From Dethiobacter alkaliphilus AHT 1 (lineage in GTDB: Bacteria; Bacillota; Dethiobacteria; Dethiobacterales; Dethiobacteraceae): a stretch of 32,320 nt of DNA. The stretch spans positions 1-32,320 of the forward strand of contig NZ_ACJM01000025.1 in NCBI RefSeq assembly GCF_000174415.1, read 5' to 3'. Of the stretch, positions 24,759 through 28,764 are shown piece after piece (the stretch's first letter is position 1; every line of letters starts with the position of its first letter). Under the pieces are notes generated by a model. It was not told the DNA's origin. It ran no database searches and saw nothing but the letters and a program-made list of their open reading frames with translations. Made by a program: the position numbers and the translations under genes.

Positions 24759-24760
<2 letters not shown>
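24710..24760. terminator. Bidirectional terminator between rubredoxin and glnB
   Basis: TCAGGTCCGG and CCGGACCTGA form the base of a long stem, with ATTCGAC/GTCGAAT inside it. TTTTTT follows on the plus strand and a T-rich stretch on the minus strand, so it can end both convergent genes. Confidence 0.88.
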
Positions 24761-25115
<355 letters not shown>

Positions 25116-26360
25116 CTAATGAACCTGCGGTACAGAGCTTTTTGACACAAAATCGGCGTATGCTTCCATACCGTGTTCACCGACGTCTAAACCTTCTTCT
25201 TCTTCTGCAGCGCTTACACGTAATCCTACCACCGCATTAATTGCTTTAAACAGGATAAAGGCAGTGGTCATGGTCCATGCAGCTACAGCTAATACACCAA
25301 TGGCCTGCACCGAAAGCAGTGCTGCGCCTCCGCCATAGAACAAACCGCCATCAGTGGCAAAGAAACCCACCATTACAGTACCGTAAGCTCCGCAGACACC
25401 GTGAACTGCCACAGCGCCCACCGGGTCATCAACATGAAGCACTTTTTCAATAAACTCCACTGCCAGAATGATCAGCACACCTGCACCGGCACCAATCAGC
25501 GCCGCACCCATAAAGTCCACATCAGCTGTGCCGGCGGTAATTCCCACCAGTCCCGCCAGGGCACCATTTAGCGTCAGACTCACATCAGGCTTACCGTAGC
25601 GTATCCAGGAGAAGGCCATGGCCAGCACCGCCCCGCCTGCTGCCGCCAGGTTTGTGGTTACCACAATGTGCGCTATGGATAAATCCATACCGGCGATGGT
25701 ACTGCCGGCATTAAAGCCAAACCAGCCAAACCAGAGAATGAAAACACCCATGGCGCCTAAGGTAATACTGTGACCGGGAATCGCATTGGGCTTTTTGTCG
25801 CTTGTGAATTTGCCCAGGCGGGGCCCTAAAATTGCGGCACCTACAAGAGCCGCCCAGCCGCCCACGGAGTGAACGATGGTGGATCCGGCAAAGTCTACAA
25901 AGCCCAACTCTTCAAGCCAACCGCCACCCCAACCCCAGTGACCCACCACCGGGTAAATCACGGCGGTAATTACCACAGAATAGAGCAGGTAGGAAACAAA
26001 CTTTGTTCTTTCCGCCATGGCTCCGGAGACAATGGTAGCCGCCGTAGCCGCAAACATGGTCTGGAACAACAGAAATGCCGGTACCGGTATGTTTAAATCC
26101 AAATGAGCAAACTCACCCAAGGCAAAAAAGCCGCTTCCACCGATAAATCCGCTTCTGGATACACCAAACATCAAGGCAAAACCAACACTCCAGTACAACA
26201 AGCTGCCGCAGGCAAAGTCCATCACATTTTTCATAATAATGTTACCCGCGTTTTTTGCCCGGGTAAAACCGGACTCCACCATGGCAAACCCTAACTGCAT
26301 AAGAAACACCAGAAAAGCTGCCAGTAACACCCAGATAGTATCAATAGCCATTTCAGTCAT
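25116..26360 (-). CDS. amt: Ammonium transporter Amt
   Basis: A 414-residue channel with about 11 membrane helices. Family segments: FLMQLGFAMVESGFTRAKNAGNI, the TIVSGAMAERTKF block, DFAGSTIVHSVGGWAALVGA, then LWFGWFGFNAGS and VGAVAVHGVCGAYGTVMVG with the pore histidines. The short C-terminal tail matches members regulated by GlnK. AGGAGG lies eight bases upstream of the ATG at 26360. It is preceded by a terminator and an ANTAR-type hairpin, so its transcription appears to depend on readthrough from glnA. Confidence 0.96.
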   Translation of the reverse strand: MTEMAIDTIWVLLAAFLVFLMQLGFAMVESGFTRAKNAGNIIMKNVMDFACGSLLYWSVGFALMFGVSRSGFIGGSGFFALGEFAHLDLNIPVPAFLLFQTMFAATAATIVSGAMAERTKFVSYLLYSVVITAVIYPVVGHWGWGGGWLEELGFVDFAGSTIVHSVGGWAALVGAAILGPRLGKFTSDKKPNAIPGHSITLGAMGVFILWFGWFGFNAGSTIAGMDLSIAHIVVTTNLAAAGGAVLAMAFSWIRYGKPDVSLTLNGALAGLVGITAGTADVDFMGAALIGAGAGVLIILAVEFIEKVLHVDDPVGAVAVHGVCGAYGTVMVGFFATDGGLFYGGGAALLSVQAIGVLAVAAWTMTTAFILFKAINAVVGLRVSAAEEEEGLDVGEHGMEAYADFVSKSSVPQVH

Positions 26361-26402: not shown

Positions 26403-26450
26403 CAAAAAAAAGGCGAAGACACAAGCGCATTACGCTTTGCATCTTCGCCT
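26403..26450 (-). terminator. Intrinsic terminator in the amt leader
   Basis: On the minus strand AGGCGAAGA...TCTTCGCCT, with an inner stem CAAAGCG/GCGCTTG, is followed by TTTTTTTT. It stands between glnA and amt, 40 bases before the amt start, so amt expression needs readthrough or antitermination unless it has an unseen promoter. Confidence 0.9.
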
Positions 26451-26455
26451 AGGGA

Positions 26456-26469
26456 GGACATCTGTGTCC
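26456..26469 (-). promoter_or_regulatory. ANTAR-type hexaloop hairpin upstream of amt
   Basis: Minus strand GGAC-ACAGAT-GTCC: a four-base stem with a six-base loop having A at position 1 and G at 4, the published ANTAR recognition pattern. It ends five bases before the amt-leader terminator. A second adjacent hexaloop is not evident. A separate GC-rich hairpin (GCGGC/GCCGC, 26493-26505) lies just after the glnA stop. Confidence 0.55.
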
Positions 26470-26509: not shown

Positions 26510-27838
26510 TTAAAATTTAGCCAGATAATTATCCAGCTCCCACTGGTGAACCTTCATTTCATAGTCCTGGTACTCTATCCGCTTTGCTGTGATAAAGCGA
26601 TTAAAGGTATGGGTTCCCAGAGCTTCACGGATAAGCACATTATTCTCCAGCTCATTTAATGCTTCTTTTAAGCTGCCCGGCAGGCTGGCGATTTTCAGCT
26701 CTTCCCGCTGCTTTTCCGTCAGATCGTAAATGTTTTTATCCACCGGTGCCGGTGCCTGAGTTTTGTTTTTAATCCCGTCAAGCCCTGCTTTAATCATCAC
26801 CGCCAAAGCCAGGTACGGGTTGGCAGAGGGATCCGGAGAGCGCACTTCTACACGGGTGCCCACACCACGACGGGCGGGGATACGAATCAGAGGCGAGCGG
26901 TTCTTCTCTGACCATGCCAGGTACACCGGAGCTTCATATCCTGGCACCAGGCGCTTATAGGAGTTTACGGTGGGGTTTGTGATTGCTGTAAACGCCGGTG
27001 CGTGCTGCAGAATTCCTCCAATATAGTGGTACGCTTCTTCGCTCATTTGTCGCGGACCGTTGGGGTCATAGAAAATGTTCTCCCCGTTCTTAAACAGGGA
27101 TTGGTGAGTGTGCATGCCGGAGCCGTTAATCCCAAAGATTGGTTTTGGCATAAATGTGGCATGCAGCCCGTGTCTCTGCGCAATGGTACGCACAACAAAC
27201 TTGAACGTTATTAACTTATCCGCCGTTGCCAGCGCTTCATCATATTTAAAATCAATTTCGTGCTGGCCTACAGCTACTTCATGGTGGGAAGCTTCAATTT
27301 CAAAACCCATCTCCTGCAGGGTCATCACCATATCGCGGCGGGCGTTTTCACCCAAATCCACCGGTGATAGGTCAAAATAACCGCCCTGGTCATGGGTAAT
27401 GGTGGTGGGCCGGCCGCTTTCATCGGTGTGGAAGAGGAAAAATTCCGCCTCCGGGCCCACATTAACACTGTAGCCCATTTCCTCTGCTTCCTTCAGAACT
27501 TTCTGCAGTGTGCAGCGGGGGCACCCAGCAAAGGGTTCCTCATCCGGGGTGTACACATCACAAATCAGACGGGCTACGCTGCCGTCCCGGGGACGCCAGG
27601 GAAATACGGTGAAAGTATTGGGGTCGGGGCGCAGGTACTGATCTGATTCTTCAATCCGCACAAACCCTTCAATGGATGATCCGTCAAACATTAATTCCCC
27701 GTCCAAAGCTTTGCCCAGCTGATCCACCGGTATGGCAACATTTTTGGGTATACCAAAGATATCGGTGAACTGGAGTCGGATAAACTTTACGTTGGCCTCT
27801 TTGGCCATGTTTAGCACATCCTGTTTTGTCAAACTCAT
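26510..27838 (-). CDS. glnA: Glutamine synthetase, type I (GSI-alpha)
   Basis: A 442-residue enzyme making glutamine from glutamate, ammonium and ATP; forms dodecamers in the cytoplasm. Family segments: [70 protein letters not shown] and [24 protein letters not shown]. Length is that of the Firmicutes GSI-alpha group, controlled by feedback inhibition rather than adenylylation. AAGGAG lies ten bases before the ATG. A terminator with an overlapping ANTAR-type hairpin stands in its leader, directly downstream of the ANTAR regulator gene. Confidence 0.97.
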
Positions 27839-27870: not shown

Positions 27871-27925
27871 GTAAAAAAACAAAAAACGCCCTAAGGGATG
27901 GAAACACTGTTTCTCCCCAGGCGCC
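27871..27925 (-). terminator. Intrinsic terminator in the glnA leader
   Basis: Minus strand: CGCC...GGCG outer stem, GGG/CCC and GAAAC/GTTTC inner stems, then TTTTTTGTTTTTTT. It lies between the ANTAR gene and glnA, about 35 bases before the glnA start. The 5' arm shares the GCGCC with the hexaloop hairpin at 27920-27931, so the two structures exclude each other. Confidence 0.82.
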
Positions 27926-27931
27926 ATTGCC
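27920..27931 (-). promoter_or_regulatory. ANTAR-type hexaloop hairpin in the glnA leader
   Basis: Minus strand GGC-AATGGC-GCC: three-base GC stem, six-base loop with A1 and G4. Its 3' arm is also the 5' arm of the following terminator, the arrangement of the P2 hairpin in known ANTAR target RNAs. An upstream P1 is not clear; an AT-only candidate just before it lacks G4. Confidence 0.5.
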
Positions 27932-27950: not shown

Positions 27951-28508
27951 TTATTTAAAATCATTAGCTGTTATAATAGCTTCCGCAATCCGTCTTATGG
28001 ATACGCGCTTATTCATACTCTGCTGCTGAATCCGCTTGTAAGCTTGTGCCTCCGGCAGACCCAGCGTTTCCATTAAAATTCCCTTAGCTTTCTCCACAGC
28101 TTTGCGGGTTGCCAGCGTTTCCTTCATCTTCGCCAATTCATCGGCCATCTTGCGCATCCGGTGCTGGGCCGCAGCCGCAAATTCTACCGCCGTTATCAGA
28201 GCAGTATCCTGAACCGGCTTTAAAATCATCCCTGAGATGTATGGACCGTTTCGCTCTCTGCGCTGATGTGTACCTAACAGCACCAGCCCAATTTGGCCGT
28301 CTTCCTCAAGCATCTCCGCTGCGGACTTTCCATGTGGAGAATCGGTGTCGATTACCACCACATCAGGCTGTAATGACTGAATCATCCGCAGTGCTCCGGG
28401 GCCGCTATCGGTTTCACCGATTACCAGGTTGCCCGCCGTGGCCATAACAGAACCGACCTTTTTACGGATACCGGCAGAAGCACTTACCACCACTCGCACG
28501 CCACTCAT
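27951..28508 (-). CDS. ANTAR-domain antitermination regulator with degenerate receiver domain
   Basis: A 185-residue protein. Residues 1-115 resemble a receiver: D54 (PDVVVIDTD) and a Lys (MILKPVQ) are in place, but the acidic pair expected near residues 9-11 is Ser-Ala-Ser, so metal-dependent phosphorylation is doubtful. A coiled segment (115-135) leads to an ANTAR domain (about 135-182) with AVEKAKGILMETLGLPEAQA and YKRIQQQSMNKRVS. ANTAR proteins such as EutV and NasR bind paired hexaloop hairpins in nascent RNA and prevent terminator formation. ATG at 28508 has AGGGGGG six bases upstream; ATG at 28514 is too close. It is followed by glnA, amt and glnK. Confidence 0.9.
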   Translation of the reverse strand: MSGVRVVVSASAGIRKKVGSVMATAGNLVIGETDSGPGALRMIQSLQPDVVVIDTDSPHGKSAAEMLEEDGQIGLVLLGTHQRRERNGPYISGMILKPVQDTALITAVEFAAAAQHRMRKMADELAKMKETLATRKAVEKAKGILMETLGLPEAQAYKRIQQQSMNKRVSIRRIAEAIITANDFK

Positions 28509-28521
28509 AGGCATCCCCCCT

Positions 28522-28574
28522 AAAAAATAAAAACGACGCTACTGCAGAGACCTTTTGCTCTCTGAGATGGCGCC
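28522..28574 (-). terminator. Intrinsic terminator in the leader of the ANTAR regulator gene
   Basis: Minus strand GGCGC...GCGTC (with one G-U pair) and CAGAGA/TCTCTG around an eight-base loop, then GTTTTTATTTTTT. It ends about 14 bases before the ANTAR start codon. Its 5' arm overlaps the second hexaloop hairpin. Confidence 0.82.
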
Positions 28575-28597
28575 GCTGCCCGGTACAACGCTGTACC
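28569..28597 (-). promoter_or_regulatory. Tandem ANTAR hexaloop hairpins (P1 and P2) in the ANTAR gene leader
   Basis: Minus strand P1 is GGTAC-AGCGTT-GTACC (28597-28582) and, one base later, P2 is GGC-AGCGGC-GCC (28580-28569). Both have six-base loops with A1 and G4. P2 shares bases with the 5' arm of the terminator at 28522-28574. This is the full architecture described for ANTAR antitermination targets, and it predicts that the regulator controls its own gene. Confidence 0.72.
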
Positions 28598-28615: not shown

Positions 28616-28644
28616 ATTATAAATTAAGTGTTTACAAATTACAA
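28616..28644 (-). promoter_or_regulatory. Sigma-A promoter of the ANTAR-glnA-amt-glnK block
   Basis: Minus strand TTGTAA (28644-28639), a 17-base spacer and a perfect TATAAT (28621-28616). Transcription would begin about ten bases before the P1 hairpin, leaving a leader of roughly 100 bases. This is the only clear promoter I see for the block. Confidence 0.7.
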
Positions 28645-28764
28645 TAGGCAATTTTGAAAATTGTTTCCGCATAGTGAAATTTTCATTTTGCGCAATCCCT
28701 TTTCGTCACTTGAGAGGGGTGATGCCATTTAACTCTTTGTTAACCTTATAGAAGCCTGCCAGTA

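Follow-up and report, generated by a model that had tools for sequence, protein, structure and literature searches.

A candidate ANTAR antitermination leader ahead of the ANTAR gene of a nitrogen-assimilation operon in Dethiobacter alkaliphilus

Does the ANTAR protein of Dethiobacter alkaliphilus AHT 1 act on the leader RNA of its own gene and, through it, on the nitrogen-assimilation genes that follow? The window analyzed here, a contiguous stretch of 32,320 nucleotides, carries on its minus strand genes in the order ANTAR-glnA-amtB-PII, which encode an ANTAR regulator of 187 aa composed of a degenerate receiver and an ANTAR domain (27951..28514), the type I glutamine synthetase GlnA (26510..27838), the ammonium transporter AmtB (25116..26360), and a PII nitrogen regulatory protein (24759..25097). 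The predicted sigma-A-like promoter of the ANTAR operon, TTGTAA-17-TATAAT (28616..28644, minus strand), agrees with the consensus at 10/12 positions, and a similar promoter, judged by eye, occupies the equivalent position in most relatives. Transcription would be expected to start at about 28609 on the minus strand, some 12 nt upstream of the first hairpin of the leader. The upstream neighbor of the ANTAR gene, a phosphofructokinase gene, is divergent, which leaves no preceding minus-strand gene that the terminator in the leader could serve. The first ATG of the ANTAR gene (28514) abuts a GGGGGG ribosome site; a second ATG at 28508 lies at a normal distance from that site, corresponds to the start in two relatives, and may be the true start.

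The leader contains a P1 hairpin of 5 bp with a six-base loop, GGTAC[AGCGTT]GTACC (28582..28597, minus strand), a linker consisting of a single G (28581), a P2 hairpin of 3 bp with a six-base loop, GGC[AGCGGC]GCC (28569..28580), which is the putative antiterminator, and an intrinsic terminator (28522..28577) that ends in UUUUUAUUUUUU. When we reread the minus strand, the sequences and coordinates that the first-pass annotation had given for P1 and P2 proved correct, as did the one-base spacing between them and the presence of A1 and G4 in both loops. The same annotation held that the 3′ arm of P2 is also the 5′ arm of the terminator; this overlap is real but larger than it stated, given that the 5′ arm of the terminator begins at A1 of the P2 loop and covers the whole loop together with two bases of the three-base 3′ arm of P2. 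The overlap, as checked in the window, lies in the direction required of an antiterminator, and because the terminator uses the loop and 3′ arm of P2, the two structures are mutually exclusive. In the predicted fold, A1 and U6 of the P1 loop could pair. On the opposite strand, the P1 segment (28582-28597, plus strand) reads as a further hexaloop hairpin, GGTAC[AACGCT]GTACC, that likewise has A1 and G4, and for this reason models match both strands at P1.

The proposal that these structures exclude each other is supported by folding in two ways. The minimum-energy fold of the leader (-29.6 kcal/mol, z -4.55, equaled by 0/200 shuffles) retains P1 and has the terminator in place of P2, and forcing P1 and P2 together yields -21.4 kcal/mol, a penalty of 8.2 kcal/mol. 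Folding with growing 3′ ends predicts that P2 forms first and is displaced by the terminator when about 67 nt have emerged. With respect to chance expectation, dinucleotide shuffles of the leader produced any such motif in 1/20,000 cases and an equally strong one in 0/20,000, and a scan of both strands of the full window found one such motif, compared with three in total in 20 shuffled windows. Within the window, the best match to a covariance model trained solely on Desulfotomaculum-group sites is this one (21.1 bits, E 0.002). Genome-wide, such a model assigns the ANTAR leader site an E of only 0.2, as expected because the motif is so short, and its top match is a glutamate-synthase leader.

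We assessed conservation in a set of eight Dethiobacteraceae genomes with a close homologue, chosen by protein similarity and including that of the window; the ANTAR proteins of the seven relatives are 59-72% identical to the window protein. The dual leader is present in 8/8 genomes with every stem pair intact and a linker of 1 nt throughout, and the terminator 3′ arm match and the U-run are found in all relatives. The P2 stem and the A1 and G4 of its loop are invariant (8/8), as is G4 of the P1 loop (8/8), and position 1 of the P1 loop is G in genomes G009 and G016. A second set of loci, from the Desulfotomaculum group, was likewise chosen by protein similarity; here a dual site precedes the ANTAR gene in at least 10/13 loci, with linkers of 5-14 nt. 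In L028 and L031 the dual site was recognized by eye, and in L033 it is doubtful. Lack of hairpin conservation, which the first-pass annotation had named as an outcome that would count against its reading, was looked for, and the hairpins proved to be kept throughout the eight family genomes and at most second-group loci. The covariation that it had suggested examining is found in part: P1 covaries among 24 distinct sequences (G-C to A-U, U-A to C-G), in an alignment whose Desulfotomaculum rows were obtained via a pairing search, but among the eight family sequences a single pair is altered on both sides, and the family-only covariation cannot stand by itself because it is too thin. In the ANTAR leader at L031:5700-5790, an extra hairpin lies between P1 and P2, possibly bridging a long linker so that the two come close.

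More widely, 79 loci around ANTAR relatives contain 35 dual A1/G4 sites, all on the coding strand, compared with 2 sites in reversed sequence and 0-14 with other loop letters. The genes downstream of the sites, among them glnA paralogues, glutamate synthase genes, and eut-type genes, fit such a regulator, and the Desulfotomaculum-group loci have additional dual sites ahead of glnA paralogues and a glutamate synthase gene. A scan of more than 50 more distant loci revealed no convincing dual site ahead of their ANTAR genes.

The protein encoded behind the leader matches PF03861 (E 1e-19), and the genome (34 contigs, 3.11 Mb) contains no second ANTAR match. Its ANTAR domain aligns with those of EutV and Rv1626, and R137, K138, K142, Y159, and M167 align with the EutV residues that contact RNA, R142, K143, K147, Y164, and M172 (PMC8934654). 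An EutV-type phospho-activated receiver combines an acidic pair with an Asp and a Lys; the window protein keeps D56 and K99, but in it and in its seven close relatives the acidic pair is replaced (VVVSAS versus IVDDEP in EutV). The Pfam receiver match of the window protein falls below the cut-off, and the acidic pair is present in the more distant L010 receiver. Normal phosphorylation requires the acidic pair that this receiver lacks; an ordinary kinase signal is therefore unlikely, and the activating signal is probably of another kind; our guess is an AmiR-like protein partner, for example the PII protein or the glutamine synthetase of the same operon.

Taken from sequence comparison and folding models, the leader is very probably an ANTAR antiterminator governing the ANTAR gene behind it and, by read-through, glnA-amtB-PII as well. 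Attenuators in general have a terminator between promoter and gene, and the switch could in principle be run by a metabolite, by translation of a leader peptide, or by some other RNA-binding protein, with the hexaloops incidental. We consider this highly improbable, given that an Rfam search of the window matched no family, that the conserved part is exactly two G4-loop hairpins, and that the pair recurs ahead of nitrogen genes in ANTAR-bearing relatives. We give equally little credence to the possibility that the ANTAR protein is bound chiefly for sequestration or negative feedback rather than for antitermination of its own gene: dual-hexaloop RNAs can be ANTAR sponges (EutX / rli55, PMC8934654) and terminated short leaders could build up and bind protein, but the P2-terminator overlap, a ready antitermination layout for which a sponge has no need, is conserved. 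The slimmest chance of all falls to a plain terminator whose hexaloops arose by chance. P2 is short, and GGC-loop-GCC with a terminator is by itself not separable from controls (24/38 versus 15/26, detailed below); however, shuffles seldom produce the full dual motif, which lies between promoter and ANTAR start codon in every close relative, and such conservation makes a chance origin unlikely.

The leader type to which we assign this site is already known, here with predicted autoregulation and with deviations in spacing and loop. Ramesh et al. 2012 (PMC3369931) established the mechanism and predicted such sites ahead of glutamine/glutamate synthase, ammonium transporter, and PII genes. The ANTAR regulons predicted for Desulfotomaculum reducens and D. 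acetoxidans (PMC3369931, Figure 9) resemble ours in having dual-hexaloop sites ahead of the same kinds of genes in related Firmicutes, whereas the main text of that paper makes no mention of autoregulation of the ANTAR gene, as predicted here. A literature search of main texts likewise found no paper describing this autoregulatory leader. The eut operon of Enterococcus faecalis, controlled by EutV (PMC3369931, PMC8934654), shares the two short A1/G4 hexaloop hairpins, the overlap between P2 and terminator, several serial terminators per operon, and a receiver-ANTAR protein. In contrast to EutV, the receiver here lacks the acidic pair, no kinase gene adjoins, the targets are glnA, amtB, and PII, a site lies directly ahead of the ANTAR gene, and the glnA site has no recognizable P1. 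The linkers differ as well: 1 nt is outside the known ranges, which are 5-12 nt in eut leaders and 2-25 nt in an actinobacterial survey (PMC8164766), and EutV induction fell drastically with a linker shortened to 3 nt (PMC3369931). Since the founding search took the linker as variable (PMC3369931), we regard the 1-nt linker as a deviation in spacing and not as the failure of a defining feature.

AmiR/AmiC offers a second comparison, alike in that the ANTAR protein has a receiver unfit for normal phosphorylation. In Pseudomonas aeruginosa, amiR is positioned behind the attenuated amiE leader, and positive autoregulation therefore has precedent. The AmiR receiver is without phosphorylation residues (PMC8934654), whereas our protein retains the phospho-acceptor Asp and the Lys, and we recognized no AmiC-like partner gene adjoining it.

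We view the ANTAR leader as the first of two or three serial terminators in the ANTAR-glnA-amtB-PII operon. The last of these, a probable switch in the amtB leader (26403..26469, minus strand), consists of GGAC[ACAGAT]GTCC, a short linker, and GC[GAAGAT]GC; the second hairpin is weak, with 2 bp at the base of a strong terminator. The layout, which was read by eye, recurs in G009 and G017, where the first loop begins with G. Elsewhere in the genome, contig C2 has a dual site ahead of a glutamate-synthase-type gene, with G at position 1 of P2, and contig C5 has a weak single-loop site (E 1.6) ahead of an asparagine-synthase-type gene. Upstream of the ANTAR promoter lies a near-palindrome, TTTCACNATRNGGAAA (28664-28679, minus strand), that is kept there in several relatives and that resembles a target of a DNA-binding nitrogen regulator. 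It also occurs at C2:192524-192539 (minus strand), where the P1 belonging to the gltB-like gene follows directly, and, with a single mismatch, at C10:22199-22214 and C14:22947-22962, ahead of a second gene of the glutamate-synthase type and of a gene for an iron alcohol dehydrogenase.

The remaining switch, in the glnA leader (27881..27931, minus strand), has a single hexaloop, GGC[AATGGC]GCC (27931-27920), located 19 nt past the ANTAR stop codon, and an overlapping terminator. The arrangement GGC[AAYGGY]GCC plus overlapping terminator is found in the glnA leader of seven genomes, in which the block GGCAAYGGYGCC is conserved and its flanks are not; six of these genomes were aligned together and the seventh, G016, was examined separately. 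When we searched the glnA leaders for a hidden P1, allowing loops of other lengths or a G as the first loop base, no candidate was common to the genomes. In G007 (L140, C107) and G008 (L141, C89), a glnA copy lies behind a dual leader, a remnant of the ANTAR frame, and a single-loop site; the ANTAR frame has decayed while both RNA elements are kept, and an intact ANTAR gene is encoded elsewhere in the genome.

In the EutV system, deletion of P1 abolishes induction (PMC3369931), yet the minimal binding site has been redefined as a single hexaloop with P1 kept as a recruitment hairpin, and why two hairpins are needed, though only one hexaloop is bound by the protein at any one time, is an open question in that study (PMC8934654). 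Nature thus provides a test of this point in the glnA leader, though not yet a proof. We tentatively suggest, at somewhat less than even confidence, that it is a working single-hexaloop antiterminator at which the ANTAR protein acts without a P1 recruitment hairpin, perhaps by way of protein preloaded at the upstream dual site or through tighter binding. The single-hexaloop pattern by itself (GGC-A..G..-GCC plus GGCG..TTT) gave 38 matches, compared with 20 and 6 for altered loops, and after folding 24/38 matches and 15/26 controls were terminator-like; on these figures we rejected the pattern alone as proof of sites. A scan of all loci found many more single-loop sites ahead of glnA, gltB, and eut-type genes, which we set aside as evidence. 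Only the conserved glnA case is counted, because some of the others have weak P1 candidates and AAAGGC-like loops can stem from the A-tracts of two-way terminators. Single hexaloop-terminator sites also occur at Bacillaceae eut-type genes (eutH-like and eutA-like; L060, L063, L067, L068, L072, L078), several of which have a recurring AARTGAATA-like stretch where the P1 hairpin would be.

We propose the following course of events. By default, as folding predicts, the nascent RNA would form P1 and briefly P2, after which the terminator would displace P2 and RNA polymerase would halt ahead of the ANTAR gene. By analogy to EutV, NasR, and AmiR, active ANTAR protein would bind the hexaloops and hold P2 until polymerase clears the U-run, permitting read-through. 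Newly made protein would then act again on its own leader, on the glnA terminator, and probably on that of amtB. The outcome would be the positive feedback of the ANTAR protein on its own gene that the first-pass annotation had envisaged, extended to nitrogen assimilation, and such a loop would need to be gated by an activating signal.

The locus offers a conserved case in which an ANTAR protein would govern its own gene in front of glnA, amtB, and the PII gene. In two groups of anaerobic Firmicutes, this arrangement is a candidate circuit for the control of nitrogen metabolism. Its natural variants, namely the fixed 1-nt linker, the G at loop position 1, and the site without P1, bear on why two hairpins are needed. 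The P1-less glnA companion in the same operon is the main source of interest, given that it could test how ANTAR proteins work.
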